The notes below the pieces were generated by a model. The model had not been told where the DNA came from, did not search any database, and worked only from the letters and a program-made list of their open reading frames with translations. From positions 1 through 64,000 of the forward strand of contig LPNG01000006.1 of NCBI GenBank assembly GCA_001543395.1: DNA of 64,000 nucleotides, written 5' to 3'. The position numbers and the translations under genes were made by a program. This DNA comes from Candidatus Alcium sp. F082. Lineage in GTDB: Bacteria > Bacteroidota > Bacteroidia > Bacteroidales > F082. The stretch's first letter is position 1. Every line of letters begins with the position of its first letter. Positions 20,576-52,974 of this stretch are shown piece after piece.

Positions 20576-20682
20576 CCCTTACGGCTATGTCATTCCGAGG
20601 ATTTTGAAGGCATAGATACACTCGCCATTTTGGCTCGTATGACATGCCTTCAAAATCCGAAGCGAATCTATAGCCGTAAGGG
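20576..20682. repeat. Family C repeat with 13-bp locus-specific arms (long compound hairpin)
   Basis: The outer arms CCCTTACGGCTAT (20576-20588) and ATAGCCGTAAGGG (20670-20682) are perfectly complementary. The core runs from GTCATTCC (20589) to GAATCT (20669). It contains a second perfect 15-bp inverted repeat (GGATTTTGAAGGCAT, 20599-20613, with ATGCCTTCAAAATCC, 20644-20658) and a small central hairpin (GCC-ATTTT-GGC). It lies between convergent genes and would fold into a hairpin of about 107 nt on either strand. Confidence 0.9.
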
Positions 20683-20692
20683 CAAACAAAAG

Positions 20693-23600
20693 CTAACGCA
20701 CATTCGCCTTCAAGCGGTCGGCGATCTTCTTCTTCAGTTCGAAGTACATCTGCTCCGTGTCGTTGCGCTTGTTGGGCTTGTAGAGGTTAGGATACTTGCA
20801 CGACTCGATTTCGTATTTCAGATTGTCGAACGGTCCTGAGATCTTCAGGCCGAGTCGTACGGGCAACGGCGATTGCGTCACCGAAAGATGGTATTCCGCG
20901 TTTTGGTCGAGGGTCTCGCGGCCGTCCACCGTGACCTTATATTTTCCAATGGCGATCTGCGAAGGCCACAAGTCGATTTCGTTCTTGAAGGCGGTGAGCT
21001 GCACATCGAGGCTGTCGACACGATACTCACCGTTGGTGCTCACATCAAGCATATCCGTAATCTTCGTGAAAGTGAACTTATCGTTCACGGTCAGGTTCTT
21101 GCCTTCGATGTCGGCAGCGGCACGCAAGGTGGAAATCTTGGGCTGGTAATTGGAACGGAGGTTGGTCTCCGCGCCAATGTGGAACTCGGCCTGCCCGTCG
21201 AAGGTCTTCAGCACGGGCACCAGCGTGTCGATATAAGGAATCATATGCAGCAGGTCGTTGATCTGCACATTCAGCAGATGGAAGTCCATGGCGAGGAAGA
21301 GGTTGTTCTTGCGTGGCGACTGGTACATGGCCGTGAGTTGCATCTCGGCGGCTTTGTTAGTGAAACCGATCTCCTGCAGGATGAGCGTGCCGTCCTTCAC
21401 CGTGGCCGTGCCTTTCAGGTTGTTGAGGTCGAAATTGCCGGTGATTGCCCTCTTGGTGTTAAGGATAAAGCTGAAGTCGATGCCTTCGGGGACCATGAAG
21501 GGGTCGTCCTCCTTGTTCTCTTTCGTTTCGGCAGGCTCGGTGTCGGACCTTCCCAAGCCGTTGGTGAGATCCATGATCTCATTGAGGTCGAGGTGGTTGG
21601 AGCTGAGCTGCATCTCACCCTTCATCAGGTTCTTATGGTCTTCGATCCACTCCTTGATGCCGACCACGCTACCTTGCAGGCTGAAGTCGGACTGCCCGAT
21701 ACGTAAGGTGCTCTTCTTGAAGTCAAGTTCGCTGGAGTTGAACAGGAAGTCGATATTGTTGATGCGGATGTCCTCGTCGAAGTCGGCTACCTTCAGCGTA
21801 GCATTGCTGAGCATGAAGTCGGCCGAGGGATTCCAATGGTTGAGGAAGTCGTTCTTGTTTTTGTTCTCATTCACCGAGGCATCGACCTTCAACGCGTTGC
21901 TGTTCAAGGCATAGGCCTTGCCCATGTTGGCAACAATATCCTTGCCGTCGAGGGTGATGCGTGCCTTCAGTCCTTTGGCGCTCTTGTTGGGCGTGGTGGC
22001 GATGGTTATATTAGGTGTGTTGAGATGGGCGGTGATGGTGTCGTAGACCACATCCAAGTGGCTGAACTTGAGGGCGCCATCCAAGAGCATCTTCTCAATG
22101 CCGCCCTTGAAGTTGTCGGCGCTGAGTTTGATGTCGGGGTTCTTCATGTCGGCATCGAGGGTCTTGCCCATCTTGGCTTGCATCTGGCTGGAGCTGAGGG
22201 CGACATAGGCGCCTTTCTTGCCTCTTTCCTTGGCGGAGGCAGGCAAAGTGACGTTGGCATTCAGTACAGGCGCAGTCACATGGATGGTGTCCATGTCGAA
22301 GGCAAAGCCTTTGACCTTCAGGTTGGCCTGAGCGAAGAGCCGGTTGAGGTTGTAGTCTTTCAACGACTTCATCAGCTGGTCGAGGGTGCAGTCGGTATTG
22401 AGGTTGAGGTCGGTGCGACCAGCCAACTTGATGTTTTTCGGGAGGAAGGGTTTCAGATCGGTCATCGGCACGTCGCCCGTCACGTTGAACTTGAAGCCCA
22501 AGTCACCCAACAGGTCTTTGACGGTGCCTTTGGCGTTGAGGCTCGACTGGTTGAACTTGGCGTTAAGGCCGTTGACGACGAAGTCGCCTTGTTTCTCGTT
22601 GAGGTTCAAGGTCAGCAGTCCGTCGAGGTCGATTTTCGAGAAAGGATAAGGCAGCGAGGGCACATTGACGGTGGCATCGTCGGTGGTCACCTTGGCTGTG
22701 ATCACAGGCATAAGGCTGTCGTTGACGGTGCCCACCACCTGTGCCTCAGTGATGTTCAGCTTGCCACGGTATTCTACGCTGCTCAGCGACTTTTGCAGGT
22801 TTTGAGGCAGGTAGGTCAGCACGTCCTCGATGACCAGGGTGCTGGTATTCAAGGCCAGGTCGAGGTTGATGTCGCCGTTGTCGGCAAGGGCTGCGTCGCC
22901 ATCCACATTGATAAGGTATTGGTTCAGACCGATTTGTGCCTTTTCGAGGTGGCCTTTCTTTTCTTTGAGGCTGAACTGCAAGGGCAGATTGAGGCTCAGC
23001 GTGTCGTGCTCCAGATAGTCTTCCTTGAGGTTGAGGCAGATGTCGGGCGTGGCCAGATTCAAGGTGCCGGCAATCTGGTCCATTTGGGTGACGTCGCCCT
23101 TGAAGTCAAGGTTCAGGTCGTTGACGGCAAGACGGATGGAGTCCTTCTCGAAGTTCAACGACCGGGAACGCATGTCAAGGTCTGCCTCGATGTCCTTTTC
23201 CTTGAAATTGCCGTTCAAGTCGAGGTCGAGACCCAAGGCACGGGCTTTCATCCCGTTGCGCGCATCGGTATAGAGCGCATTGGTATTTTTCAGCTTAACC
23301 TCTTCTATGTCAACGAGATAATCAAACGAGGACGAAACGGTATCTTTTTCTTTTGAGTTGAATACATCGAAGTTGTTTTGACCGAGTGTATCGGTATAGA
23401 GGTTGACGAGAGCGTCTTCGAGGATGCATTTCTTGATGACGATCTCTTTCTCTTTCAGCAGTTTCTTGATGTCCAAGGCGACGGTCAGGTTGTCGATGTT
23501 GGCCAAGGTGTCCGACGGCGAACCCTCCATCGGGTTGATAAGAGCGACATTCTCGATGTCGATGCCCACGTTGGGGAAGGTCTTGAACAGCTGGAGATCG

Positions 23601-23770
23601 GCCTTACCAAGTTGTATCTCACAGTTGACGAACTGCGGCGCGTATTTCTTGACTTGCTTGGTGAGCCAGCCCGACGAGGTGACCAATAGGGAGGCGACGA
23701 CCGCCACGATGAGGATCAGGCCGACGAGCGACGCCAGGGTGATGCCGGTGATTTTCAGTGCCTTTTTCAT
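20693..23770 (-). CDS. AsmA family protein
   Basis: The 1025-aa protein has one N-terminal TM helix (ITGITLASLVGLILIVAVVASLLV), then LTKQVKKYAPQFVNCEIQLGKADLQ (shown in part). A long beta-rich repeat body follows, typical of AsmA/TamB-like bridging proteins (VGIDIENVALINP, LAGRTDLNLNTDCTLDQL, FDNLKYEIESCKYP). It probably sits in the inner membrane with a periplasmic body that helps phospholipid or outer-membrane traffic; that role is drawn from better-studied family members. It begins 2 nt after the small lipoprotein gene ends, so the two form an operon. Confidence 0.85.
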   Translation of the reverse strand: MKKALKITGITLASLVGLILIVAVVASLLVTSSGWLTKQVKKYAPQFVNCEIQLGKADLQLFKTFPNVGIDIENVALINPMEGSPSDTLANIDNLTVALDIKKLLKEKEIVIKKCILEDALVNLYTDTLGQNNFDVFNSKEKDTVSSSFDYLVDIEEVKLKNTNALYTDARNGMKARALGLDLDLNGNFKEKDIEADLDMRSRSLNFEKDSIRLAVNDLNLDFKGDVTQMDQIAGTLNLATPDICLNLKEDYLEHDTLSLNLPLQFSLKEKKGHLEKAQIGLNQYLINVDGDAALADNGDINLDLALNTSTLVIEDVLTYLPQNLQKSLSSVEYRGKLNITEAQVVGTVNDSLMPVITAKVTTDDATVNVPSLPYPFSKIDLDGLLTLNLNEKQGDFVVNGLNAKFNQSSLNAKGTVKDLLGDLGFKFNVTGDVPMTDLKPFLPKNIKLAGRTDLNLNTDCTLDQLMKSLKDYNLNRLFAQANLKVKGFAFDMDTIHVTAPVLNANVTLPASAKERGKKGAYVALSSSQMQAKMGKTLDADMKNPDIKLSADNFKGGIEKMLLDGALKFSHLDVVYDTITAHLNTPNITIATTPNKSAKGLKARITLDGKDIVANMGKAYALNSNALKVDASVNENKNKNDFLNHWNPSADFMLSNATLKVADFDEDIRINNIDFLFNSSELDFKKSTLRIGQSDFSLQGSVVGIKEWIEDHKNLMKGEMQLSSNHLDLNEIMDLTNGLGRSDTEPAETKENKEDDPFMVPEGIDFSFILNTKRAITGNFDLNNLKGTATVKDGTLILQEIGFTNKAAEMQLTAMYQSPRKNNLFLAMDFHLLNVQINDLLHMIPYIDTLVPVLKTFDGQAEFHIGAETNLRSNYQPKISTLRAAADIEGKNLTVNDKFTFTKITDMLDVSTNGEYRVDSLDVQLTAFKNEIDLWPSQIAIGKYKVTVDGRETLDQNAEYHLSVTQSPLPVRLGLKISGPFDNLKYEIESCKYPNLYKPNKRNDTEQMYFELKKKIADRLKANVR

Positions 23771-23772
23771 GG

Positions 23773-24198
23773 TTATTCCACTTTCGTGAGATGATGCGTT
23801 GTGCCGTAGTCGTCGTGATAAACGAGTTCAGAGGAGGTAAGGGTTGAGACGGTATAGATCTTGGGCACGATGATGAAAGCGCCTACGTGTTCGTGTTTCA
23901 GCGTGGCCCCGGTCAACGTCCAGTTGAAGAGTTGTGCCTCCTCTTCCATGACATCGTCTTGTTCGTCCCAAGTGGTGCCATTGGCCTTCACGGTGTCGCC
24001 ATTGGGAAGGATGCGTTCAAATTCGGTCTCATAATAACGCTCAAAGACAGTGCCTTCCTGCCACTTGCCGTAAAGCAAGTTGACGTCGAACTCGTCTTTC
24101 GGTATTCCGCCGCCACATGAGACCAGCCCCAACAGCAGGGCAAAGAAGAAGGCGACGTTCAGACGCAGATGTTTATTGATGACACGCATATTGACCAT
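23773..24198 (-). CDS. Small lipocalin-like lipoprotein
   Basis: The 141-aa protein has a lipoprotein signal with the lipobox LVSC (FFALLLGLVSCGGG). The rest is beta-rich, with a tryptophan-containing first strand (LLYGKWQEGTVFERYY) and repeats of strand-like segments ending VYHDDYGTTHHLTKVE, as in lipocalin-like proteins of Bacteroidota. Two starts are possible: ATG 24198 (only about 4 nt after the predicted transcription start) or ATG 24189. Function unknown. It is co-transcribed with asmA. Confidence 0.7.
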   Translation of the reverse strand: MVNMRVINKHLRLNVAFFFALLLGLVSCGGGIPKDEFDVNLLYGKWQEGTVFERYYETEFERILPNGDTVKANGTTWDEQDDVMEEEAQLFNWTLTGATLKHEHVGAFIIVPKIYTVSTLTSSELVYHDDYGTTHHLTKVE

Positions 24199-24206
24199 TT
24201 TTTCTG

Positions 24207-24234
24207 CAAAAGTAAGATTAATTTTCTATCTTTG
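24207..24234. promoter_or_regulatory. Back-to-back divergent promoters, lipoprotein-asmA / nitrilase
   Basis: TACTTTTG on the minus strand (24207-24214) and TATCTTTG on the plus strand (24227-24234) are separated by 12 bp. This is the same geometry as at 5937-5964. Confidence 0.6.
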
Positions 24235-24253
24235 CATTGACAATACAAGAATT

Positions 24254-25075
24254 ATGCCTAATCTCCATCTCGCCTATATCCAAGCCGACCTCCGATGGGA
24301 GGACAAAGACGCCAACATCGAGCGTTTCGGCCGTCTGCTGGAGCAAGTGCAGCCTGGCATCGACCTCATCCTTATGCCCGAGACCTTCACCACGGCCTTC
24401 CCTGTCGACCCGAAACAATTTGCCGAGAAAGAAGACGGACCTACGATGCAATGGCTTCAGAATCAAGCCAAAGCGAAAAATACCGTCATTTGCACCACCT
24501 TCCCTCTCGTCGTCGAAGGGCACTACTACAACAGCCTTGTGTGGATGCGCCCCGACGGCAGCCATGAACTCTATTTCAAGCGTCACACCTTCACCATGGG
24601 CGGTGAGGATAAATTGGTGGAACGGGGCGAAAAGCAACTGATTGTAGAACTGAACGGTTGGCGCATCCGTCCGATGATATGCTACGATATCCGTTTCCCG
24701 GTGTGGGCCAGGAACCGCTATGTAAACGGGCAATACGAATACGATTTGGCCTTCTATCTCGCCAATTTCCCCGACTCGAGGATGATTGTTTGGAACACCC
24801 TCTTAGTGGCTCGTGCCATCGAAAACCAAGCCTATTGGGTGGGTGTGAACCGCGTCGGCGACGATGCCAACGGCCTGCATTACAGCGGCGAGTCGCAGGT
24901 CATCAACGCCCGTGGCGAGGTCATCTCCAAAGCTGAGCCTTACCAAGAGGCCGTGCTGCACTGCACCTTGGATTACGAGAAGCTGCAACATTTCCGGCAG
25001 AAATTCCCTTTGGGACCGGACTGGGACGAATTTGAAATCTCTGGTTTGCCGTCATTGCGAGGCCTCATTCCGTGA
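24254..25075 (+). CDS. Nitrilase-superfamily omega-amidase-like hydrolase
   Basis: The 273-aa enzyme shows the nitrilase triad context. Glu lies in LILMPETFTT, Lys in ELYFKRHTFTMGGE, and the nucleophilic Cys in IRPMICYDIRFPVW. These motifs fit the YafV/omega-amidase branch, which hydrolyses alpha-ketoglutaramate or related amides in the cytoplasm. The C terminus reads EFEISGLPSLRGLIP: the last residues are encoded by a family B repeat (from 25050) that seems to have displaced the normal stop. ATG 24254 follows the promoter at 24227; longer upstream frames are antisense to the neighbouring lipoprotein. Confidence 0.88.
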   Translation: MPNLHLAYIQADLRWEDKDANIERFGRLLEQVQPGIDLILMPETFTTAFPVDPKQFAEKEDGPTMQWLQNQAKAKNTVICTTFPLVVEGHYYNSLVWMRPDGSHELYFKRHTFTMGGEDKLVERGEKQLIVELNGWRIRPMICYDIRFPVWARNRYVNGQYEYDLAFYLANFPDSRMIVWNTLLVARAIENQAYWVGVNRVGDDANGLHYSGESQVINARGEVISKAEPYQEAVLHCTLDYEKLQHFRQKFPLGPDWDEFEISGLPSLRGLIP

Positions 25076-25164
25076 AGACGGAAGAAGCAATCCAGAAAAT
25101 AAGCTTTTACCCTAGATTGCTTCGTCGTTCCTCCTCGCAAATCGAAGATTCGACGGAGTCAATG
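25050..25164. repeat. Inverted pair of family B repeats
   Basis: Copy B1 (25050-25093) runs CGTCATTGCGAGG to GAAGCAATCC and includes the last codons of the nitrilase gene. Copy B2 (25113-25164) begins TAGATTGCTTCGTCGTTCC in the opposite orientation and ends CAATGACG. Together they form a large imperfect inverted repeat. The same family occurs in polA (52008) and in the GH92 gene (55821). Confidence 0.75.
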
Positions 25165-25166
25165 AC

Positions 25167-25235
25167 GCAAGCGTCACTAACAACTCTAAACTAACAACTG
25201 ACTCTAAACCCTAAACTCTAAACTCTAAACTAAAA
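25167..25235. repeat. CTCTAAACT/CTAACAACT simple tandem repeat
   Basis: Irregular tandem copies of CTCTAAACTCTAAACT and related units lie directly before the tadA start. No promoter box was seen in it. Confidence 0.65.
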
Positions 25236-25236
25236 A

Positions 25237-25677
25237 ATGCTCTCTGTTTTCTCCGACGAATATTACATGAAACAGGCTTACCAAGAGGCTCAGCAAGCCC
25301 TTGAAGCCGACGAGATACCCATCGGCGCCGTCGTGGTATGTAACAACAAAGTCATCGCCCGCGCCCACAACCAAACCGAGACGCTCAACGACGTTACGGC
25401 CCATGCCGAGATGCTGGCCATCACCGCAGCGGCCAATGCCTTGGGCGCAAAATATTTGGAAGAATGTACGCTTTACGTCACCTTGGAACCCTGCCCCATG
25501 TGCGCCGGTGCCTTGTGTCACGCCCATATAGGCAAAGTGGTTTGGGCTGCTGACGACCCCAAAAACGGCTTCTCGCGCTACGGCAAGATGCTACATCCCA
25601 AGACGAAGACAGAAACCGGCGTGATGCACGACGAATGCCTCGCCTTACTGACGGACTTCTTTAAACGGAAACGTTAA
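25237..25677 (+). CDS. tadA: tRNA adenosine(34) deaminase TadA (nucleoside deaminase)
   Basis: The 146-aa protein has the zinc deaminase motifs HAEM (His ligand and catalytic Glu) and PCPMCAGAL (two Cys ligands), with the TadA-like ALEADEIPIGAVVV start and KNGFSRYGKMLHP. It converts A34 to inosine in tRNA-Arg(ACG); a guanine or cytosine deaminase role is less likely from the motifs. It ends 4 nt inside the convergent ClC gene. Confidence 0.88.
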   Translation: MLSVFSDEYYMKQAYQEAQQALEADEIPIGAVVVCNNKVIARAHNQTETLNDVTAHAEMLAITAAANALGAKYLEECTLYVTLEPCPMCAGALCHAHIGKVVWAADDPKNGFSRYGKMLHPKTKTETGVMHDECLALLTDFFKRKR

Positions 25678-27452
25678 TCTTCAGATATTTCACTCATCAT
25701 GGCGCGGTAGGCCGAGAACACATTGGCTCGCGAGAGGTAACCCAGGTACTTTCCTCCTTGGATGACAGGGATATTATACTTGCCCGATTTCTGGAACTTG
25801 TGCACAATCTCCTCCATGGGCTCGTCGGGGTGAATGACATAATCGGGCAGCACCGCATAGTTCTGGATCGATTGGTTGTAATGACTCTCATCGAAGAGGA
25901 TGCCGCGCACGTCGTCAAACAACACATGCCCGCAGAAGAAACCTTCCTTGTCGACCACAGGGAAGATGTTGCGCTTCGACGACGACACCAAAGGCAACAG
26001 GTCGCCGAAAGTGCAATTGGGGTCAATGGGGCTGAAGTTGGTTTCGATCAACTGATTGATGGCCATCATGTTGAGGATGCTCTTGTCCTTGTTGTGTGTC
26101 ACCTCCACGCCCTTCTCGGCCACGGCATTGGTATAGATGGAGTGGTTGAAGAACAGCCTATTGATGGCGTAGGCCAAGGCCGATACGATCATCAGCGGCA
26201 CGATGAGTGCATAGCCATTGGTAATTTCGGCGATGAGGAAGATGCCCGTCAGCGGGGCATGGAGCATGCCTGCCACCAGGCCACTCATGCCTACGAGGGC
26301 AAACTTGGCCGGATCCAAGTCACCGATACCCAGATAGTTGACCAATGTGGCAAAGAACAAACCCGTGAAAGCTCCAATAAACAAGGCTGGTGCGAAGGTG
26401 CCACCCACGCCGCCTGCACCAAAGGTGAAGGCCGTGGCAAAGGCTTTCAGCAATATCATGCCGGCAAAGAGGATGATGACCACCAAATCCATGTTCTTGA
26501 ACTGCGCAAACCAGGGGTTGCCGAACACAGGGCTATAGTCGCCGCGCAAGGCCGAGTTGATGGCTTCGTAGCCCTCGCCGTAAAGTGCGGGGAAAAGGAA
26601 AATCAGGATACCCAATAGCGATCCACCGATGAGGAAACGCATCCAGGGCGACTCCACCTTCTTAAAACGCTTCTCCACCGTGAAGGTCACCTTGAGGAAA
26701 TAGGCCGACACCAGACCTGCGAAGAGGCCCAGCAGCACATAATAGAAGGCATTGGAGGGGATGAAGCCTTCGGCGATGACGGCGGGATACTCTACCGTTT
26801 GGCCCAAAAACCAATAGGCGGTCAGGATGGCGACAAACGAAGAGCAGATGATGGGCACCAAGGCGTTGAGCGACAGGTCGATCATGAACACCTCGAGGGC
26901 GAAGACGATACCCGTGATGGGGGCCTGGAAGATGGCCGCCAAGGCCGCCGCACCACCCATGCCGATGAGCAGGATGGTGTGCTTATAGTCGAGTTTGAGC
27001 AGTTGCGCGATGTTGGAGCCAATGCTACCACCCGTCGACACGCTGGGACCTTCCAATCCCACCGAACCGCCGAAGCCGACGGTCAAGGCGCTGGTGACGA
27101 TACTCGACCAGGTGCTGCTGCGATCCACCTTGCCTTTGTTCTTCGAGATGGCGTAGAGGATGCCCGGTATGCCATGGCCAACATGCTTCTTCAAGATGTA
27201 CTTGCAAAACAGGATGGTCAGCAAGATACCGATGGCGGGGCAGATGAAAAAGAGGAAATGTGCATATTGACCTTGAAAATTGAACACCAATTCACGGATG
27301 CCGTGGGCCAGCTTCTTGATGATGACGGCGGCGGCTCCAGCGAGGAAGCCTGTCGGGATGCTGAGCAACAGCATGAAGCGGCGATCCGACATGTGGGTCG
27401 CGCGCCAGGTGTTGAATTGGTCAATCCATCCGTTGAGCTTGTCCTTAAGCAC
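25674..27452 (-). CDS. ClC-type chloride channel/antiporter with CBS domains
   Basis: The protein is 592 aa from GTG 27452. It has the ClC signatures GFGGSVGLEGPSVSTGG (with the gating Glu) and GAGGVGGTFAPALFIGA, and about ten TM helices. Two C-terminal CBS domains follow (MMAINQLIETNFSPID onward and VIHPDEPMEEIVHKF). It moves Cl-, possibly with H+ exchange. The reading frame continues far upstream, but that part is antisense to exonuclease III and is not protein. GTG 27452 follows a TATTTTAG box (27472-27479, minus strand); ATG 27392 is an alternative. Confidence 0.9.
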   Translation of the reverse strand: MLKDKLNGWIDQFNTWRATHMSDRRFMLLLSIPTGFLAGAAAVIIKKLAHGIRELVFNFQGQYAHFLFFICPAIGILLTILFCKYILKKHVGHGIPGILYAISKNKGKVDRSSTWSSIVTSALTVGFGGSVGLEGPSVSTGGSIGSNIAQLLKLDYKHTILLIGMGGAAALAAIFQAPITGIVFALEVFMIDLSLNALVPIICSSFVAILTAYWFLGQTVEYPAVIAEGFIPSNAFYYVLLGLFAGLVSAYFLKVTFTVEKRFKKVESPWMRFLIGGSLLGILIFLFPALYGEGYEAINSALRGDYSPVFGNPWFAQFKNMDLVVIILFAGMILLKAFATAFTFGAGGVGGTFAPALFIGAFTGLFFATLVNYLGIGDLDPAKFALVGMSGLVAGMLHAPLTGIFLIAEITNGYALIVPLMIVSALAYAINRLFFNHSIYTNAVAEKGVEVTHNKDKSILNMMAINQLIETNFSPIDPNCTFGDLLPLVSSSKRNIFPVVDKEGFFCGHVLFDDVRGILFDESHYNQSIQNYAVLPDYVIHPDEPMEEIVHKFQKSGKYNIPVIQGGKYLGYLSRANVFSAYRAMMSEISED

Positions 27453-27521
27453 TTCTCTCTCTTTTAGGCCGCTAAAATAGGAAAAAGTATTGAGTGAATT
27501 GAAAAGAAACAACTTTTTCAG

Positions 27522-27533
27522 TATTTTCGCAGC
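27522..27533 (+). promoter_or_regulatory. -7 box with leaderless spacing before exonuclease III
   Basis: TATTTTCG (27522-27529) is followed by CAGC and then ATG 27534. The 4-nt gap would place the start codon at the transcript 5' end. The last-but-one T of the consensus is C here. Confidence 0.5.
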
Positions 27534-28295
27534 ATGAAAATCGTTAGCTACAATGTGAACGGCATCCGTGCAGCCATCAACAAGGGCCTGCTGCAATGGA
27601 TCAACGACTACCAACCCGATGTGCTCTGCTTCCAAGAGCTCAAAGCCACGCCCGACCAAATCCCATTGATGGATTTTGAGATGATGGGCTACCATCACTA
27701 TTGGTTCCCAGCGCAGAAAAAAGGCTATAGCGGCGTGGGGCTCATCACGAAACAGGAGCCTGACAACGTCGTTTATGGCATGAACGAACCCTTGTACGAC
27801 AGCGAGGGGCGTTTCCTCCGTGCCGACTTCGGCGACCTCTCGGTGGTGAGCGTCTACCATCCCTCGGGCACCACGGGCGACGAGCGCCAGGCCTTCAAGA
27901 TGGTTTGGCTCGACTTCTTCCGCAACTATGTCAATGCGCTTAGGAAAGAACGTCCCAACTTGGTGCTCTCGGGCGACTACAACATCTGTCATGAGGCTAT
28001 CGACATCCATAACCCCAAGTCGAACGCCAACTCGTCGGGCTTCCTGCCCGAGGAGCGCCAGTGGATGACCGACTTCTTGAGCGACGGCTACATCGACACC
28101 TTCCGTCATTTGGTGAAGGAGCCCAACCACTACAGCTGGTGGAGTTTCCGTGCCGGTGCCCGTGCCAAGAACCTGGGTTGGCGCATCGACTACCACATGG
28201 TGACCGACAACATGGAAAGCCGCATTGCCGGCGTGGGCATCCTGCCCGAGGTGATGCACTCCGACCACTGCCCCATCGTGCTCGATTTGAAATAA
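27534..28295 (+). CDS. xth: Exodeoxyribonuclease III (AP endonuclease)
   Basis: The 253-aa protein carries the ExoIII family motifs. These are MKIVSYNVNGIRAA at the start, LCFQELKA (metal-binding Glu), SGVGLITK, LVLSGDYNICHEAIDIHNP, RIDYHMVTDNM and the C-terminal SDHCPIVLDL. It cuts DNA at abasic sites and trims 3' ends in base-excision repair. It is divergent from the ClC gene and followed by tRNA-Arg. Confidence 0.94.
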   Translation: MKIVSYNVNGIRAAINKGLLQWINDYQPDVLCFQELKATPDQIPLMDFEMMGYHHYWFPAQKKGYSGVGLITKQEPDNVVYGMNEPLYDSEGRFLRADFGDLSVVSVYHPSGTTGDERQAFKMVWLDFFRNYVNALRKERPNLVLSGDYNICHEAIDIHNPKSNANSSGFLPEERQWMTDFLSDGYIDTFRHLVKEPNHYSWWSFRAGARAKNLGWRIDYHMVTDNMESRIAGVGILPEVMHSDHCPIVLDLK

Positions 28296-28322
28296 AGATT
28301 ATCCTATTTCAGAAAAAAACCG

Positions 28323-28330
28323 TACTTTTG
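28323..28330 (+). promoter_or_regulatory. -7 promoter box for tRNA-Arg
   Basis: TACTTTTG, followed by CAGC, predicts a start near 28335, eight bases before the mature tRNA. Confidence 0.65.
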
Positions 28331-28342
28331 CAGCGTTTTCAT

Positions 28343-28414: not shown

Positions 28415-28424
28415 CAGCACAACG

Positions 28425-28466
28425 AAAATCCCTAATTGATTTACTATCGATTAGGGATTTTTTTTG
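28425..28466 (+). terminator. Terminator of the tRNA-Arg gene
   Basis: A 16-bp stem (AAAATCCCTAATTGAT with ATCGATTAGGGATTTT, one G-U pair) with a 5-nt loop is followed by a T-run. Confidence 0.88.
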
Positions 28467-45561: not shown

Positions 45562-45614
45562 TACACGTGCATTATGATGGTTATTCTAACCTTTGTAACG
45601 CATTGGCTGCAGAA

Positions 45615-46652
45615 TTATTGCATAATCCAGTCCGCAGCCGTCTCAATCACGTTGTCGAGGCCTAGTGCAGTGGCAACAGGGTCAAGGATGACGCGCTCAT
45701 CGGGCGGCACGCCGTTCTCGTAGTTGTGGCCAGCCATGTCGAGGGTGCGGCTTGTGCTGAAACGATAGGTCCAACCGTTGGGTAGCATGCCGCCGTTGGG
45801 CAAGCCCATGCCACCACCGGTGTAGTCACCAAAGAGCTTCACGTTGTCGTAGCCTTGGGTGCAGACCGAGAAGAACGAAGTGGCGCTATACGAACCACGG
45901 TCGATAAGCACGGCGACAGGCTTGATGTAAGGATTATTACCAAGCAGACTGCTGTCGGCGGCATACACCGTCACAGGATCTCCGAAATCATTATGGCCAG
46001 CGCCCTTTTTCACCTGAGTGGTGTAGAGCGGCTGCTTGTGGTTATCGAAGATGCTGAGAAGCTGCTGCACATTGGCAATGGAGCCACCACCATTCTGACG
46101 CAAGTCGATGATGAGGCCCTTGCAATCCTTGTATTGATTGAGCACATACTTCAGGTCATAATCGCTGATATCATTCGAGAACGAGGTATAACGCAGATAA
46201 GCCACTTGGCCATCGCGAATGCTATTGTGGGCAAAGCTCCCCGTGGTGTGATAATTGACGGTCAAATAGTTAAGCAATACAACGTCGGGGTCGATGTTCT
46301 TTTCGGCATACATCTTATAATACACCGAATCGTTGCGCGACACATCGAAGCTTGAGAACAAGTTGGTGTGACCGTCGCGAAGCGTGTTGAGCATGTCGGC
46401 GCAAACTTTGAACAGCTCTTCATCGCTCATGTCGTCGTTCACCATAGGGCGATACACTTCGCGCACCGAGTCCCAATTGATGTTTTTCACATCGAAGAAG
46501 GTGTATTTCTGGTCTACTTGGTTCCAGAGGTAATCGAACACGTTGACGGGATTCTTGGGCTCGTCGGGCAACATCACAGCACTTTCACAAGAAGCGAAGG
46601 CGAGTGCCACAAGGCACAATAAAAGGGTATGTATCTTTTTCATGGCTTTCAT
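45615..46652 (-). CDS. S41 family peptidase (lipoprotein)
   Basis: The 345-aa protein has a lipoprotein signal (TLLLCLVALAFASC). A tail-specific-protease catalytic domain follows, with LRDGHTNLFS, GLIIDLRQNGGGSIANV, the nucleophilic Ser region LIDRGSYSATSFFSV and the GGGMGLPNGGMLPNGW loop. There is no obvious PDZ domain, as in the short Bacteroidota S41 branch. ATG 46652 overlaps the preceding stop (TGATG); ATG 46643 is an alternative. Peptide trimming for the neighbouring TonB receptor is a plausible inferred role. Confidence 0.87.
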   Translation of the reverse strand: MKAMKKIHTLLLCLVALAFASCESAVMLPDEPKNPVNVFDYLWNQVDQKYTFFDVKNINWDSVREVYRPMVNDDMSDEELFKVCADMLNTLRDGHTNLFSSFDVSRNDSVYYKMYAEKNIDPDVVLLNYLTVNYHTTGSFAHNSIRDGQVAYLRYTSFSNDISDYDLKYVLNQYKDCKGLIIDLRQNGGGSIANVQQLLSIFDNHKQPLYTTQVKKGAGHNDFGDPVTVYAADSSLLGNNPYIKPVAVLIDRGSYSATSFFSVCTQGYDNVKLFGDYTGGGMGLPNGGMLPNGWTYRFSTSRTLDMAGHNYENGVPPDERVILDPVATALGLDNVIETAADWIMQ

Positions 46653-47512
46653 CAGTTGACTTTGAACATAAAGTTAAGGTTAAAGGAATGGAGGGCGGTG
46701 TCGTAGCGGTAGGTTCCCTTCTTGCCCGTGGTGATGTAATCCCAGCGGTAGCAGAAACCGACGCGGTTGCCGTTGAGCAAATTGAGGTAGAGTCCCAACT
46801 CGGTGTCGGCACCAGGGAAAAATTTGCCAAACGACTCATTGTCGCCAAACAAGGCATCAGTGACTCCTGTGTTAATGGTCGGGTTGCCAATATAAGAGTA
46901 GCTTGGGCGCATAGCCATACCATGCAAGGGAAGGTTCAACTTGAAATAGGTGGTCATCCAAGGATGGTTTTGGGCTTTGTTGAAAGCGAAATCGTATTGC
47001 ACCATGCCCGTTGCACCGATGTTGCCAAACAAAGAGACGCAAGTGGAGGCATTCTGCAATTCTGGGAGAGCCTTGATGTCAAGCATACCTTGCAAGGTGC
47101 CACCAACCCACAAACGCAAACGGTTCTTGTAGGCCTCGTGGACCCTGTAGAGAACCTCGGTGGAAAGGTTAAGGTCGATCACGGAACCAGCAGGTTCAGT
47201 GGTCGCATTTTGAAACAAATGGAAAGCGGGACGCACATGGTAACGGCCCCATTCAATCGTGACGCCAGCACCAGCATTCATGCCGTAGCCAAAATAGCTG
47301 AAGGGAACAGTACCATTGTCGTAGCAATTCGCGACATTCAGGCCTGACGACAAGTCCAACCAAACGGGGACACGGGTTTGGTTAGGATAATAAACGAGTG
47401 GTTTCACTTCGTTGGATTTCTCAGCAACAGCGTAGCTTTGTGCCCACGTGTTTGCCGATAGCAGCATTGCAACTGCCAACAATAACGAAATTTTAATGGG
47501 TTTTTGTAACAT
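46652..47512 (-). CDS. Outer-membrane beta-barrel-like protein of unknown function
   Basis: The 286-aa protein has a signal peptide (ISLLLAVAMLLSANTWAQ) and a body of alternating amphipathic strands (VWLDLSSGLNVANCYD, GMNAGAGVTIEWGRYHVRPAFHLF, RLRLWVGGTLQGMLDI, GLYLNLLNGNRVGFCYRWDYI). The last strand ends with SFNLNFMFKVN, typical of a small outer-membrane barrel. No named family was recognised. ATG 47512 is chosen because the upstream part overlaps the TATTTTTG promoter (47540-47547, minus strand). It is the first gene of a four-gene run with S41, TonB receptor and DUF4249. Confidence 0.75.
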   Translation of the reverse strand: MLQKPIKISLLLAVAMLLSANTWAQSYAVAEKSNEVKPLVYYPNQTRVPVWLDLSSGLNVANCYDNGTVPFSYFGYGMNAGAGVTIEWGRYHVRPAFHLFQNATTEPAGSVIDLNLSTEVLYRVHEAYKNRLRLWVGGTLQGMLDIKALPELQNASTCVSLFGNIGATGMVQYDFAFNKAQNHPWMTTYFKLNLPLHGMAMRPSYSYIGNPTINTGVTDALFGDNESFGKFFPGADTELGLYLNLLNGNRVGFCYRWDYITTGKKGTYRYDTALHSFNLNFMFKVN

Positions 47513-47539
47513 TTGGATAAAGTTTGTTGAAAATCGTTG

Positions 47540-47586
47540 CAAAAATACGGCTTTTTATCATTTCTCAACAATTATCCGTATTTTTG
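47540..47586. promoter_or_regulatory. Divergent promoters, barrel cluster / metG
   Basis: The minus-strand TATTTTTG (47540-47547) and plus-strand TATTTTTG (47579-47586) are 31 bp apart. The metG leader of about 75 nt contains a nested palindrome (47598-47632). Confidence 0.6.
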
Positions 47587-47597
47587 CACCCGTTTTT

Positions 47598-47632
47598 ATC
47601 CCCCCTAAAGGGGTGCCCAAAGGGCGGGGGAT
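47598..47632. repeat. Nested C/G-rich palindrome in the metG leader
   Basis: ATCCCCC (47598-47604) pairs with GGGGGAT (47626-47632), and inside are CCCCTAAAGGGG and GCCCAAAGGGC. It lies between the promoter and the metG start, so it would fold in the mRNA leader. Confidence 0.65.
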
Positions 47633-47665
47633 TAACGGAACACCTTTAAATTTAAATTTTACACT

Positions 47666-49744
47666 ATGGAATCAACGAACAAACCCTCAATCCGTGAAAA
47701 CGGATTCAAGCGTTACACAGTAACCACGGCCTTGCCATATGCCAACGGCCCTGTCCACATCGGTCACCTTGCCGGCGTCTATATCCCCGCCGACACCTAT
47801 GTTCGCTATCTGCGAATGCGTGGCGAGGACGTCTTGTTTGTCGGAGGTTCCGACGAGCACGGCGTGCCGATTACCATCAAAGCCGAAAAGGAAGGCTGCA
47901 CGCCTCAAGACATCGTGGACCGCTATCACGAGATCATCAAGAAGTCGTTCGAGGAGCTGGGCATCAGCTACGACATCTACTCGCGCACCTCTTCTAAGAT
48001 GCACCGTGCCACGGCCCAAGAGTTCTTCAAGAAACTTTATGATGAAGGAAAGTTCATCGAGAAGGAGACGGAGCAATATTTTGACCCTGAACGTCAGAAG
48101 TTCCTTTCCGACAGATATATCGTGGGCACTTGCCCGAAATGCGGTGCCGACGGTGCCTATGGCGACCAATGTGAGAAATGCGGCTCTTCTTTGAGCCCCG
48201 ACGAACTCATCAACCCGCACTCGCAACTCAGCGGCGCGGCCTTGGTGAAGAAGCCGACCAAACACTGGTACCTGCCTCTCGACCAATATGAGGGCTGGCT
48301 CCGTGAATGGATCCTCGAAGGCCACAAAGAGTGGAAGAGCAACGTCTACGGCCAGGTGAAGAGCTGGCTCGACGGCGGTTTGCAACCTCGTGCCGTCACC
48401 CGCGACCTCGACTGGGGCGTCCCCGTCCCGATTGAGGGTGCCGAAGGCAAGGTGCTGTATGTGTGGTTCGATGCCCCTATCGGCTACATCTCCAACACCA
48501 AGGAAATTTGCGAAAAACGTGGCGAAGACTGGGAGAAATGGTGGAAAGACCCAGAGACCAAGCTGGTGCATTTCATCGGCAAGGACAACATCGTGTTCCA
48601 CTGCATCATCTTCCCCTGCATGATGAAGGCCTACGGCGACTATATCATGCCCGACAACGTGCCCGCCAACGAGTTCCTCAACCTCGAGAACGACAAGATC
48701 TCGACCTCGCGCAACTGGGCCGTGTGGCTCCACGAATACCTGCAGGAGTTCCCTGGCAAGCAGGATGTGCTGCGTTATGTTTTAACCGCCAACGCTCCTG
48801 AAACCAAGGACAACAACTTCACTTGGAAAGACTATCAAGACCGCAACAACAACGAGTTGTTGGCCATCTTTGGCAACTTCGTCAACCGCACGTTGGTCTT
48901 GACACATAAATACTATGAAGGTGCTGTGCCTGCTTTAGGCAACCTCAACGACACTGACAAGGCCGTCATCGAAGAGATGAACGCCTATCCGCAGAAGATT
49001 GGTCACCTGCTGGATACTTACAAGTTCCGCGAGGCCCTCTCCGAGCTGATGAACTTGGCCCGTCTGGGTAACAAGTACCTCACCGACAACGAGCCTTGGA
49101 AGCAAATCAAGACCGACCCCGAGCGCGTGAAGACCGTGATGGCTGTCTCGTTGCAAATAGTGGCACACTTGGCCCTTCTCAGCGAGCCTTTCCTGCCTTT
49201 CAGCGCAAAGAAATTGCAACAGATGATTGGTCTGGAAGTGAAGGGTTGGAATGATGCCGAGAACACCGTTCTGTTGCCTGAAGGTCATGTCATCAACCAA
49301 CCTGAACTGTTGTTCGAGAAGATCGAAGACAGTGTGGTGGCCGCCCAGCTGCAGAAGTTGGAAGACACCAAGAAAGCCAACCAGTTAAACGCTTGGAAAC
49401 CAGCCGAGGTGAAGCAAAACGTAAGCTTCGACGACTTCATGAAAGTGGACGTCCGTGTGGGTACCATCCTTGAGTGCCAGAAGGTGCCGAAGGCCGACAA
49501 GCTGCTTCAGTTCCTCATCGACGACGGCATGCAGAAGCGCACCATCGTGAGTGGCATCGCCAAGTACTACACTGAACCCGAGAAGCTGGTGGGCAAGCAG
49601 GTTTGCTTCGTCGCCAATTTCGAGCCGCGCAAGCTCAAAGGCGTGGTCAGCGAAGGCATGATCCTCTCCGCCGAGGACAAGGACGGCCGCCTCGTGCTGC
49701 TGACGCCGAGCGATTTGGTCACGCCGGGATGTAGCGTCGGTTGA
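47666..49744 (+). CDS. metG: Methionine--tRNA ligase
   Basis: The 692-aa class I synthetase has the HIGH motif as PVHIGHLAG and a four-Cys zinc knuckle [18 protein letters not shown]. The KMSKS equivalent is [14 protein letters not shown]-terminal OB-fold tRNA-binding domain begins at [14 protein letters not shown], as in dimeric MetRS. It charges initiator and elongator tRNA-Met. ATG 47666 is used. Confidence 0.95.
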
Positions 49745-49768
49745 GTTCCCCCCAATGTCACACGGTCA

Positions 49769-49824
49769 GCCTCCCATGTCATTCCAACGGGGGCTAGTGC
49801 GAAAGCATGGAATCTATGGGAGGC
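49769..49824. repeat. Family C repeat with 9-bp locus-specific arms
   Basis: Arms GCCTCCCAT (49769-49777) and ATGGGAGGC (49816-49824) are perfectly complementary. The core runs from GTCATTCC (49778) to GGAATCT (49815). The core boundaries match those at 20589/20669 although the arms are unrelated. Confidence 0.88.
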
Positions 49825-49852
49825 GGTTCAAAAAGCAAAGACCTTGTTTGAC

Positions 49853-49920
49853 GGCTTCATAAAACATAGATCCCAAGCCACCGCACAGACCAGCGTGGGG
49901 ATGACATGCTTTATGAAGCC
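49853..49920. repeat. Family C repeat with 15-bp locus-specific arms, inverted
   Basis: Arms GGCTTCATAAAACAT (49853-49867) and ATGCTTTATGAAGCC (49906-49920) match at 14 of 15 positions. The core, read on the minus strand, starts GTCATCCCC and ends GGGATCT. With the copy at 49769 it fills most of the metG-polA gap (49745-49977), which holds no gene. Confidence 0.85.
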
Positions 49921-49977
49921 TGCTTTAACGAATAACAAATATATTGAGTCCTGCCCCTATTTGGGTGAAAGGATAAA

Positions 49978-52974
49978 TCAATGTGCCTCCAGCCAGTTCG
50001 CGCCTGTGTTCATCTCCACGATGACCGGCACCGACAATGGCAGGGCATTCACCATCTTATCGTTGACAATGGATTTCAGCGTGTCGAGTTCGTCGAGATG
50101 CGCATCGAAGACCAATTCGTCGTGCACCTGAAGAATCATCTTCGACTGCATCTTCAAGCGTTCCAACTCCTGATGAATGCCGATCATGGCGATTTTGATC
50201 ATGTCGGCCGAGCTACCTTGAATGGGCGCGTTGATGGCGTTGCGTTCGGCGAAGCCACGCACCACGCTGTTGGAGCTATTGATGTCGCGCAGGTAACGGC
50301 GGCGGCCTAAGATGGTCTCGGCATAGCCGCGTTCACGCGCCAAGGCGATGCTGCGGTTCATGTATTCCTTGATGCCCGCATATTCCTCGAAGTATTTCTT
50401 GATGATGTCGGCTGCCTCGCTGCGCGAGAGCTCCATGCGCTCGGCAAGACCGAAGGCCGACATGCCATAGATGATGCCGAAGTTGACGGCCTTGGCACGG
50501 CTGCGCTGTTCTTTGGTGACTTGATCCATGGGCACATGAAACACCTTGGCCGCCGTGGCGGCATGGATGTCGTGACCTAGGTTGAAGTCGTTGACCATAG
50601 CAGGGTCTTGGCTCAAATGGGCAATGATACGCAATTCGATTTGGCTGTAGTCGGCAGCCAAAAGGGTGTATTCTGGGCTACGCGGTACAAAAGCACGACG
50701 TATCTCACGGCCTTTCTCGGTGCGTACAGGGATGTTCTGCAGGTTGGGGTTGTTGGAACTCAAGCGCCCCGTGGCCGTCACGGCCTGGTTGTAGGAGGTG
50801 TGGATCAGGCCATCTTTAGGGTTGACCAAGGCCGGCAGGGCATCCAGATAGGTCGACTTCAGCTTGGTGAACGAGCGGTAGTCCAAAATCATCTGGATGA
50901 TAGGATGCTTATGCGATAGCTTCTGCAGCACATCCTCGCCTGTGGCATATTGTCCCGTCTTGGTTTTCTTTGCCTTTTCATCAATGCGTAGTTTCTCGAA
51001 AAGCACTTCGCCCAATTGTTTCGGCGAGGCGATGTTGAAAGGCATGCCAGCGGCTTTGTAGATCTCTTCCTCAATCTTGTGGATCTCGACGCCAAAGGCT
51101 TCGCTGATTTGCTGCAGGTTCTCCGTGTCGATACGCACGCCGTTGGCCTCCATGCGACTCAAAACAGGCACGAGCGGCATCTCAATCTCATAAAACAGTT
51201 TCTCCACGCCGTTTTCCTTGAGCAGGGGCAACAGCTTCTCGTAGAGTTGCAGCGTGATGTCGGCGTCTTCGGCAGCGTATTCCTTCACCAACTCCACTGG
51301 CACCTCACGCATAGTCTTTTGCATCCTTCCCTTGCCGATAAGGTCTTCGATGGGGATGGTGAGATAGTTGAGGTAGACCTCGGCGAGGTAGTCCATGTTG
51401 TGGCGTTGCTCAGGCTCGAGAAGGTAATGGGCCAGCATGGTGTCGAACAGTGGACCTCTCACGCTGATGCCGTATTGCGCCAACATGGAGATGTCGTATT
51501 TCAGATTCTGCCCTATCTTCATGATGCTCTCGTCTTCAAACAAAGGCCGCAACAGCTCCAGTTTCTTCTGGCATGCTTCGCGTTCGGCGGGCATGGACAG
51601 ATACCACGCCTCGTGTGCCTTGATGGCGAAAGAAAGGCCGACCAACTCAGCAGAGTACACGTCGATGTTGGTGGTCTCAGTGTCAAAGACAAAGTATTTT
51701 TTCACTTCGCCGTCCATGTCATACCGACTGAAGCAGCCCTTAGATTCGCTCACTCGTTCCTCGTTCGGAATGACATGGGCTGCGGAAGGAGCGTATCTAT
51801 GGACGGCGGAGCCCGATAAAAGCTCTACCAAAGCCTTAATGTCAGCATCGCTTTCCACAAGCTTATAGTCGTGGGCCACCGTCTTGGCCGAGTCCTTGTC
51901 GGAGAACTCCAAGATACCACTATTGTCGCCTTGGTTGAAGAGGTCAAACTCACCAGAGGGAGTGGAGGTGGAGAACAAATCGGGTGTTTGACTTTCCGCA
52001 GTTTCCCTAGATTGCTTCGTTCCTCGCAATGACGGTGAGGCTGAGGTCCCTGAGCCTGTCGAAGGGCCGTCCAAAGTGGATTGTTTCCCTTTATAATCCT
52101 CCAAGAAACGTTTGGCAAAGGTCCTGAACTCCAGTTCCTCAAAAAGGGCCATCAGCGCTGGTACATCGGGCTCCTTGGCACGGAGTTCTTCCTCGTTAAA
52201 TTCAACGGGTACCTCAAGGTTGATGGTAGCCAGGCTCTTCGACATCAGGCCTTGCTCAGCGAAGTTGACGACATTCTCTTTCTGCTTGCCTTTCAGCTCG
52301 TCGGCATGGGCGATGAGGTTTTCCACACTGCCGTATTTCCCCACCAGTTGTGCCGCCGTCTTCTCGCCAATGCCAGGGATGCCCGGGATGTTATCTGCGG
52401 CATCGCCCCAAAGGCCAAGGATGTCGATGAGTTGCTTGGGCTCTTGTATACCGTAGCGTTCGCAAACCTCTTTAGGTCCCCACACCTGTGCTGGCTCGCC
52501 GAACTTGGCGGGTTTATAGAGCAGGATCTTATCCGTCACCAGCTGTCCGAAGTCCTTGTCGGGCGTCATCATATAGGTGAGGAAGCCTTGTTGCTCGGCT
52601 TTTTTCGACAGGGTGCCGATAACGTCGTCGGCCTCGTAGCCTTCCACGCCGTAAACGGGTATGTTGAAGGCTTCGATGAGTCGAATAATATAAGGTATGG
52701 CATCGCGGAGGTCATCAGGCATCTTCTCGCGGTTGGCCTTGTACTCGCTATATTCGGCCTGCCGTTGGGCGGTGCCAGCCACGTCGAAGGCCACACCGAT
52801 ATGGGAGGGCTTCTCTTTTTGCAGAATCTCGTAGAGCGAATTCAAAAAACCGATGATGGCGGAGGTATTGACGCCTTTCGAGTTCATGCGAGGGTTCTTA
52901 TTCATAGCAAAGAAAGCCCTGTAAATCAACGCATAGGCATCTAACAAAAATAGCTTTTTCTCAGTGGTTTCCAT
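49978..52974 (-). CDS. polA: DNA polymerase I, with three in-frame repeat insertions
   Basis: The protein is 998 aa from ATG 52974 (ATG 52989 would add five). The order is 5'-3' exonuclease (LFLLDAYALIYRAFFAMN, GYEADDVIGTL, DNIPGIPGIGEKTA), then 3'-5' exonuclease (YFVFDTETTNID, NLKYDISMLAQYG, NMDYLAEVYLNY), then polymerase (DYSQIELRIIAHLSQDP, AKAVNFGIIYGMSAFGL, QVHDELVFD). The exonuclease DxE is present. The linker after the 5' nuclease holds a family A repeat (GPSTGSGT, residues about 303-310) and a family B repeat (SLRGTKQSR, about 314-322). A family C repeat (HVIPNEERVSESKG, about 400-413) lies just before the 3'-5' nuclease motif. These help explain a length greater than the roughly 930-950 aa I expect for relatives. 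It follows mnmA and the rluA-like gene in one operon. Confidence 0.93.
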   Translation of the reverse strand: METTEKKLFLLDAYALIYRAFFAMNKNPRMNSKGVNTSAIIGFLNSLYEILQKEKPSHIGVAFDVAGTAQRQAEYSEYKANREKMPDDLRDAIPYIIRLIEAFNIPVYGVEGYEADDVIGTLSKKAEQQGFLTYMMTPDKDFGQLVTDKILLYKPAKFGEPAQVWGPKEVCERYGIQEPKQLIDILGLWGDAADNIPGIPGIGEKTAAQLVGKYGSVENLIAHADELKGKQKENVVNFAEQGLMSKSLATINLEVPVEFNEEELRAKEPDVPALMALFEELEFRTFAKRFLEDYKGKQSTLDGPSTGSGTSASPSLRGTKQSRETAESQTPDLFSTSTPSGEFDLFNQGDNSGILEFSDKDSAKTVAHDYKLVESDADIKALVELLSGSAVHRYAPSAAHVIPNEERVSESKGCFSRYDMDGEVKKYFVFDTETTNIDVYSAELVGLSFAIKAHEAWYLSMPAEREACQKKLELLRPLFEDESIMKIGQNLKYDISMLAQYGISVRGPLFDTMLAHYLLEPEQRHNMDYLAEVYLNYLTIPIEDLIGKGRMQKTMREVPVELVKEYAAEDADITLQLYEKLLPLLKENGVEKLFYEIEMPLVPVLSRMEANGVRIDTENLQQISEAFGVEIHKIEEEIYKAAGMPFNIASPKQLGEVLFEKLRIDEKAKKTKTGQYATGEDVLQKLSHKHPIIQMILDYRSFTKLKSTYLDALPALVNPKDGLIHTSYNQAVTATGRLSSNNPNLQNIPVRTEKGREIRRAFVPRSPEYTLLAADYSQIELRIIAHLSQDPAMVNDFNLGHDIHAATAAKVFHVPMDQVTKEQRSRAKAVNFGIIYGMSAFGLAERMELSRSEAADIIKKYFEEYAGIKEYMNRSIALARERGYAETILGRRRYLRDINSSNSVVRGFAERNAINAPIQGSSADMIKIAMIGIHQELERLKMQSKMILQVHDELVFDAHLDELDTLKSIVNDKMVNALPLSVPVIVEMNTGANWLEAH
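51733..51783 (-). repeat. Family C repeat inside polA, with 7-bp arms
   Basis: On the coding strand, arm GCAGCCC and arm GGGCTGC bracket a core from GTCATTCC to GAATCT. The total length is 51 bp, exactly 17 codons, with no stop in the polA frame (AAHVIPNEERVSESKGC). Confidence 0.88.
52008..52035 (-). repeat. Family B repeat inside polA
   Basis: TAGATTGCTTCGTTCCTCGC followed by AATGACGG is read on the polA strand as part of SPSLRGTKQSRE. It lies 9 bp from the family A copy at 52045. Confidence 0.85.
52045..52068 (+). repeat. Family A repeat inside polA
   Basis: Read on the polA strand, it encodes GPSTGSGT in the same frame and orientation as the copies in the tandem T9SS genes. Confidence 0.9.

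Follow-up and report, generated by a model that had tools for sequence, protein, structure and literature searches.

CGTC-tagged repeats with a variable, paired outer stem in Candidatus Alcium and other genomes of its genus

The window, a stretch of 64,000 nucleotides (nt) of Candidatus Alcium sp. F082 (contig LPNG01000006.1) from an uncultured, probably rumen, Bacteroidales genus, carries short hairpin-forming repeat elements at four loci. The core of these elements is that of a CGTC-tagged repetitive extragenic palindrome (REP), a described superfamily (PMC3733652), and it is enclosed by two complementary arms that pair to form an additional, outer stem. An initial annotation of this DNA had reported four cores with arms that pair within a locus and differ between loci, and re-reading of the sequence bears out their positions. 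It had counted four elements; all four loci are hairpins, but locus 1 and the polA locus are nested pairs that hold two units each, with the inner unit in opposite orientation.

All features were read from the sequence, and the nested core of locus 1 and the cores of loci 2 and 3 were found by pattern match as well. At locus 1 the 5′ outer arm CCCTTACGGCT (20576..20586) pairs with the 3′ outer arm AGCCGTAAGGG (20672..20682), as the fold also indicates, and between them lies the outer element ATGTCATTCC...GAATCTAT (20587..20671), all on the plus strand. This encloses an element on the minus strand, with the core ATGTCATACGAG...GTATCTAT read on that strand (20612..20645) and arms whose plus-strand letters are GGATTTTGAAGGC (20599..20611) and GCCTTCAAAATCC (20646..20658). 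Locus 2 lies on the plus strand and consists of the arm GCCTCCC (49769..49775), the core ATGTCATTCC...GGAATCTAT (49776..49817) and the arm GGGAGGC (49818..49824). Locus 3 lies on the minus strand, with a core at 49866..49907 in the orientation opposite to locus 2 and arms with the plus-strand letters GGCTTCATAAAAC (49853..49865) and GCTTTATGAAGCC (49908..49920), which form one non-Watson-Crick pair. Thus the elements at 49776 and 49866 are a head-to-head pair, situated between two converging open reading frames. A half element (either ATGTCA... or ATGTCATTCC extended by about 5 nt) is found at 49754–49768, immediately ahead of a full element of the family with GCCTCCC arms and at a nearly constant distance from it; the same arrangement is seen in the window's genome (G000, L047) and in a second genome of the genus (G020, L066, L072 and L118). 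Other genomes of the genus are likewise designated by G numbers.

The fourth locus lies inside a 1003 amino acid (aa) open reading frame (49978..52989, minus strand), which we take from its sequence to be polA (DNA polymerase I). The frame stays open through the insert (approximately aa 394–428), which keeps the reading frame and lengthens the protein in step. The outer element ATGTCATACC...GTATCTAT (51716..51800, plus strand) is bordered by the outer arms CTTCGCCGTCC (51705..51715) and GGACGGCGGAG (51801..51811), read on the same strand and paired at 10 of 11 positions. It encloses an element on the minus strand with a core at 51740..51776, in which the AT on one side is TT, between arms with the plus-strand letters GCAGCCC (51733..51739) and GGGCTGC (51777..51783). 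The outer element is absent from polA of G002 and G011. A second, different REP of the GTCATTGCGAG...GCAATCT type is also present inside polA (51985–52041), approximately 70 codons before the main element, and is read in frame as SLRGTKQS (aa 320 on).

Single-strand folding of the four loci gives z values against shuffled sequences of −10.8, −3.4, −5.7 and −5.4. Loci 1–3 are situated between the 3′ ends of convergent open reading frames. Reading by eye showed no T run after the arms at any of the four window loci, and intrinsic terminators were thus ruled out. An Rfam scan of the window at the gathering threshold yielded only a tRNA, with no match for the elements.

The unit consists of an outer stem of about 6–13 bp, an AT, an asymmetric internal loop in which GTC faces CT, a second AT and an inner stem. 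The constant part is AT-GTC-AT on one side and AT-CT-AT on the other, with variable but matched stems on both sides of it. The initial annotation had described a constant core by its shared ends. A constant core is indeed present, but the rule is better written as AT-GTCAT...ATCT-AT with the arms outside, since the bases enclosed by GTCAT and ATCT vary as well, again in pairs (TCC/GGA, CCC/GGG, ACC/GGT). TGTC is present in every copy, being fixed by the search pattern; the first stem pairs, A-T and T-A, were read as GTCAT...ATCT at the window loci and are elsewhere fixed by the search patterns, and so biased. The inner stem and its loop are variable, the cores measured from AT to AT are mostly 31–45 nt, and the tail is CT. 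In cores of the 38-nt type, e.g. at G000 C65:23713-23753, the interior often consists of two near-repeats, TGCGNNGGC, with NTG between, which are direct and not inverted. The outer stem is not restricted to one core type, since a core of the GTCATTGCGAG type at G000 C69:37002-37032 (L058) has a perfect 16-bp outer arm.

A scan of 2.55 Mb of DNA, overlaps included, was blind to the content of the loop: it required only that the outer arm have 6 bp or more and the inner stem 3 bp or more, and that AT border the loop on either side. Among the 89 sites of the 3x2 loop class, 88 are GTC/CT. Among the other loop sizes, 2x2 is found twice and 3x3, 4x4, 4x3 and 3x4 not at all. The exact share of GTC/CT is biased because part of the scanned DNA had been chosen for holding the pattern; the stretches selected without it are G002 L181–L240, the polA loci and the loci of Y1 transposase genes.

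Elements were collected from G000 and G020 with the pattern ATGTCATN14-44ATCTAT, which gives 51 and 70 matches respectively, the reversed control giving 0 and 1. The mean perfect arm is 6.18 bp in G000 (51 matches) versus 1.29 bp with shuffled partners, and 4.65 bp in G020 (68 matches with flanks) versus 1.28 bp, a few of these matches being chance strings. With an inner stem of at least 2 bp, 111 of 119 matches were retained; about four of the eight dropped are chance-like, and those of L043, L054, L085 (one copy) and L113 look like real copies. An arm score of 5 or more is found in 100 of the 111 copies, versus 6.8 on average and at most 14 over 200 shuffles. The pairing of the arms is therefore far beyond chance, although not exact throughout, as the arms of locus 3 show. 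Watson-Crick pairing is 86–93% at arm positions 1–6 and 52% at positions 11–12 (28–34% when shuffled), and all four pair types are found at 11 of the 12 arm positions.

The arms had been thought specific to each locus. They do differ between many loci, with 56 distinct 6-nt arms among the 111 copies, and no single arm is common to all. But there are arm sub-families, the commonest arm, GCAGCC, being found in 16 copies, which rules out arms unique to each locus. Core similarity and arm similarity are correlated (Mantel r = 0.29 in G000 and 0.33 in G020, p = 0.001 each); the far flank, 25–32 nt away, gives r = −0.03 with the core in G020. The observation is real and strongly non-random, and it represents an unusual evolutionary behaviour.

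Units are frequently found one inside another. Another element's ends are present on both sides within 40 nt in 21 of the 119 matches, and these nested partners are in opposite orientation in 19 cases versus 2 in the same orientation. Close pairs with both GTC tags outside number 16 (6 in G000, 10 in G020), and stand-alone pairs with the tags inside number 2 (G020).

Among the members of the CGTC-tagged REP superfamily are dRS3, RPE-4 and RPE-6 (Di Nocera et al., 2013, PMC3733652). The elements here share with it the GTC tag, with TGTC listed as a variant, AT first stem pairs, a palindromic core, predominant head-to-head pairs, and copies both at the ends of genes and within genes for replication and repair, with REPs listed in DNA polymerase I genes. 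CGTC-tagged REPs are apparently without a dedicated transposase, as are the elements here so far as Y1_Tnp genes within about 2 kb are concerned. In CGTC-tagged REPs the tag is terminal and unpaired and the tail is mostly CCA, with a stem of 8–9 bp and a loop of 4–5 nt, whereas here the tag lies inside a loop closed by an outer stem (100 of 111 copies), the tail is CT, and the inner stem is variable with longer loops. In addition, the units here nest and the outer stem covaries between copies. Since the defining terminal tag is absent, the elements are a variant and not plain members of the superfamily. REPs within palindromes are also described there (H. neapolitanus CGTC-1 dimers, T. roseum GTAG-23, A. 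variabilis GTAG-15). These have complementary arms as well, but with one consensus per family, in contrast to the 56 distinct arms found here. The initial annotation knew of no described element with such a rule; the core proves to be a known one, polA copies and REPs in palindromes included, and it is the enclosed tag that differs.

The outer-stem form of the CGTC REP looks unreported. Nothing on enclosed tags is present in the extracts of RepRanger (PMC12306157) or of the HuH survey (PMC6006769), the latter of which mentions unusual structures next to genes of Bacteroidetes subclass 2.6. Searching the literature with strings of the core brought up no paper, among those listed, that looked related, and within the library searched nothing was found that joins repetitive extragenic palindromes with template switching, or with Bacteroidales and the rumen.

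The distribution of the outer stem differs from that of the core. Of 99 genomes of the genus searched, 26 are rich in the element (23–84 matches) and the other 73 have 1–18 matches; many strings among the matches listed for the element-poor genomes resemble coding sequence that fits the pattern by chance. In named genomes, a scan with ATGTCATTCCN8-24GGAATCTAT gave at least 117 stretches in many phyla, 80 of which were used. These contain 36 copies in 27 records assigned to the genus by title before arms were computed, and 52 copies elsewhere, other Bacteroidota included (one further copy, at the end of a contig, being left out). Perfect arms of 4 bp or more are present in 26 of the 36 copies from the genus (2.6 expected) and in 1 of the 52 copies from other records (0.27 expected); at least three of the 27 genus records are contigs of G020 or G011, so that this is not independent of the 111-copy arm test. 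Because the same core outside the genus has arms in only this one copy, the outer stem looks, on this sample, like a lineage-specific addition to a widespread core.

The origin of the arms can be followed at sites that are empty in related genomes. Close anchors in G002 are available for 20 sites of G000 and G020, with about 55% of G002 covered. At 13 of the 20 there is no GTCAT..ATC element in G002; these comparisons represent 11 distinct sites, as L053/L109 and L051/L062 are one site each. Both arms pre-exist at one of the 13, L099 (G000 C121:46259), where 8 of 9 bases are found on each side: the G002 counterpart (L239) has GTAGAGACG-CGGCGCGCCA-CGTCTCTAC and the element occupies its tip in G000. 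The GTAGAGACG...CGTCTCTAC segment itself looks like another short hairpin repeat. At L053/L109 the right arm has an 8/9 match in G002 away from the junction, and at L043, L054, L055 and L064 the arms match at 7/9 on one or both sides (both at L064), as the arms of other elements often do. The initial annotation had offered insertion in the tips of existing hairpins as one explanation, and with one case in 13 this is ruled out as a general rule. Its view that the arms are not ordinary direct duplications is upheld. Of the two marks of a MITE, terminal inverted repeats and a direct target duplication, paired ends are present; the flanks differ from the empty G002 sites by 4–22%, too much for a short duplication to be read.

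In polA of G002 and G011, which after the insert are 98% and 93% identical to the window polA, the insert is absent, neither whole arm is present and there is no such hairpin at the site, the comparison being limited by about 14–18% DNA divergence in the aligned stretch past the insert. At a site in a putative DUF2779 gene, 20 species are occupied and 16 of these have exactly GCAGCC/GGCTGC as arms. Among the ten empty species, the left arm is found in none and the right arm GGCTGC in two, where it is part of host codons (Gly-Cys) that are mostly kept in some form after the arm in occupied species. Flank-derived arms as the sole cause are thus unsupported. Instead, because arms follow core relatedness and GCAGCC/GGCTGC is mostly absent from empty species, it seems that the unit brings the inner part of the outer stem with it, although DUF2779 leaves some doubt. 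In two species (G066 and G111; L340, L348) the 3′ half of the element in the DUF2779-like gene and its right arm are duplicated in frame, with two copies of GATGACATGGCTGCT about 33 nt apart.

The outer part of the outer stem looks host-made at two other coding sites. At a radical-SAM gene, the element is present in 25 of the 30 species compared. Its left arm CTTTGGAA lies on host codons (Ala-Leu-Glu) common to the five empty species, exactly in one and with 1–3 differences in four, and the right arm, the inverse TTCCAAAG or TTCAAAAG, is present in none of the five. At a gene that putatively encodes a GT39 glycosyltransferase (L300–L329; copy of the window's genome in L096, approximately position 1904), 12 of the 30 species compared have the element. 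Here the right arm runs into host Val-Phe codons, and GGTCTT is present in 4 of the 18 element-free species; the left arm is the inverted copy, and AAGACC is present in none of the 18. In G087 this arm is 18 bp and perfect. The GT39 site is also a hot spot, where pairs of the GTCATTGCGAG type, hairpins of the CCCCCTTAAAAGGGGG type or repeats of the CCTGAAAGGGC type are present in other species.

The arms change in pairs between species. At positions 2, 3, 4, 6 and 7 of the radical-SAM arm, different Watson-Crick pairs are found in different species. On a three-gene tree with several weakly supported nodes, at least 4, 2, 6, 2 and 6 double changes, respectively, are needed among paired species, at least 20 in total; mismatched cells number 9, 4, 3, 0 and 1 of the 23 species counted. 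The count leaves out two of the 25 occupied species, G097 (two elements) and G059 (a nested remnant).

The interior of the hairpin is also found inverted between species. In G023 and G087 the 86-nt composite that G000 has at the radical-SAM site lies in inverse orientation between unchanged flanks, with 79/86 and 80/86 identical positions in the inverted alignment and 54/89 in the direct one. G101 versus G023 gives 79/86 inverted and 56/90 direct, and at the GT39 site G087 versus G000 gives 84/86 inverted and 54/91 direct. For DUF2779, G113 compared with 16 species shows 28–36 of 41–43 identities inverted and 21–28 of 43–47 direct, G066, G102 and G111 being left out as their interiors are not cleanly delimited. 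Thus interior inversion is clear at two coding sites and less clear at the third.

A check for an associated transposase covered Y1_Tnp (PF01797) genes. No element is found within about 2 kb of Y1_Tnp genes at 30 loci (two chance-like matches occur in L150), and none of 20 Y1_Tnp neighbourhoods in six rich genomes holds an element (two weak matches are without the element form); one Y1 match of G015 fell outside the neighbourhood check. The nearest distances between a Y1 gene and an element are 2.4 kb in G000 C110 and about 3 kb in G020 C14. Y1_Tnp genes are present in element-rich and element-poor genomes alike. GTAG-tagged REPs, which are associated with RAYT/TnpA-REP (PMC8266576, PMC6006769), resemble the elements in having a hairpin with an unpaired guide tag and a CT beside the structure, and in the importance of a bulge, known for the E. 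coli REPs. They differ in that the tag is GTAG and the RAYT gene is flanked by the repeat.

Taken together, these data make it somewhat more probable than otherwise that the elements are CGTC-tagged REPs in a lineage-specific two-stem form, which spread as hairpins and whose arms are kept matched by template switching. The unit would spread as a single-stranded hairpin read by a nuclease, with GTC as the guide and a cut at CT, by analogy with TnpA-REP, which cuts at CT guided by GTAG (PMC8266576). A TnpA-REP-like enzyme is possible because GTC lies opposite CT in the loop. After insertion, template switching between the arms during replication would copy one arm onto the other and so keep the stem paired while its sequence drifts. 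Through the same process an inverted copy of one host flank could be added to the stem and make it longer, and the interior of the hairpin may occasionally be flipped. Template switching is put forward for both upkeep and inversion because paired arm changes and interior inversion are both seen in coding sequence. The proposal, already made in the initial annotation, fits both, though it is unproven, and it does not explain the origin of new copies. Template switching between inverted repeats is reported to homogenise arms and invert spacers in yeast genes (PMC8604942), and to create and maintain RNA hairpins (PMC8794818). Arm homogenisation, paired multi-base changes and spacer inversion are thus common to that process (see also PMC7202029) and to the elements here. 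The reported cases, however, are from yeast genes, RNA genes and E. coli, whereas here a dispersed mobile repeat is concerned and the link to it is inferred. A bolder form is doubtful, namely that of a mobile hairpin without its own transposase, in which only the five-base asymmetric loop and its AT borders are fixed while the stems drift in matched pairs, and which nests, lengthens into the host and flips by hairpin-templated replication.

Several observations weigh against template switching between the arms of a spreading hairpin. The tag is almost never symmetrised: 16 rich genomes have 1049 asymmetric matches (spacer 14–44), versus 14 sites of the form ATGTCAT..ATGACAT and 46 of the form ATAGAT..ATCTAT (25 for the reversed control of the latter; spacer 14–36 for both), and by eye one or two sites in each symmetric set are element-like. 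Template switching through the loop should yield more symmetric tags than this. Their scarcity needs selection, a recognition requirement or switch points kept within the outer stem; the asymmetry may persist because recognition needs the loop, or because the switch points would fall in the outer stem. The correlation of arm and core is moderate, and in G000 the far flank is weakly correlated with the core as well (r = 0.12, p = 0.003). Arm position 2 at the radical-SAM site is mismatched in 9 of 23 species, and exchange of alleles between species may inflate the double-change counts. Such exchange is possible because species carry different contents at one site, and G000 and G089, which are close on the tree, have different radical-SAM contents. 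At DUF2779, a related unit could have replaced the earlier one, rather than the interior having been inverted. As to the arms that look host-made, a unit with a similar arm could have picked a similar target at the radical-SAM and GT39 sites, for the radical-SAM left arm because CAGGCTTTTGAAGGC-like arms recur elsewhere. The DUF2779 right arm occurs in two empty species, and the outermost right polA arm (GGCGAAG) resembles GTCGAAG of G011. Finally, no Y1 transposase gene examined has an element within about 2 kb.

Selection on RNA would account for the same matched stems in another way. The two-stem hairpin would be a functional RNA motif, for 3′ end protection or for protein binding at the GUC/CU loop, maintained by compensatory mutation. 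The fixed loop with covarying stems on both sides has the look of an RNA-protein motif and fits the selection for a stem considered in the initial annotation, and both the folding values and the position of loci 1–3 between convergent frames agree with it. It is less natural inside coding sequence. In polA, radical SAM, DUF2779 and GT39 the copies for the most part have arms that still pair, and the reading frame continues through them. Interior inversion moves the loop to the other strand, Rfam gives no match and the copy number is patchy (26 of 99 genomes rich), so that this explanation is unlikely. Nesting and inversion would, together with the constancy of the loop and the near absence of symmetric tags, suit an unknown structure-specific enzyme, HUH or other, that reads the GTC/CT loop, cuts, and inserts and flips the hairpin, the arm match being a by-product of hairpin-templated repair. 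The cut of TnpA-REP at CT is a precedent (PMC8266576), but there is no candidate gene, the examined Y1_Tnp genes lack an element within about 2 kb and element-poor genomes carry Y1_Tnp too, which makes this quite unlikely. It is improbable that a one-stem CGTC REP inserts in the tip of any hairpin, other REPs included, and that the arms represent the target. L099 is a case of precisely this kind, nesting is common and REPs inside palindromes of constant sequence are described (PMC3733652), but both arms pre-exist in only one of the 13 comparisons with empty G002 sites (flank divergence 4–22%), the two empty polA sites have no hairpin, and arms correlate with core relatedness.

CGTC REPs are widespread, with the core found in many phyla, and they apparently have no transposase dedicated to their movement (PMC3733652). 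The repeats described here record their own mutation in drifting paired stems, flipping interiors and arms that may copy host codons. They offer a natural system in which to study both template switching in wild bacteria and recognition of the tag, since the conserved part has shrunk to an internal loop. The elements also shape proteins, since copies add in-frame peptides to genes such as polA.

Runs of elements in the same orientation are found in G020 at C15:49466-52086 (L161), C19:12232-13822 and C21:149273-151050, with a spacing of 200–1400 bp and repeated surroundings. Integron-like attC arrays were set aside, as the runs looked like repeated gene contexts. They resemble a series of small genes that arose by duplication and have an element at the end of each.

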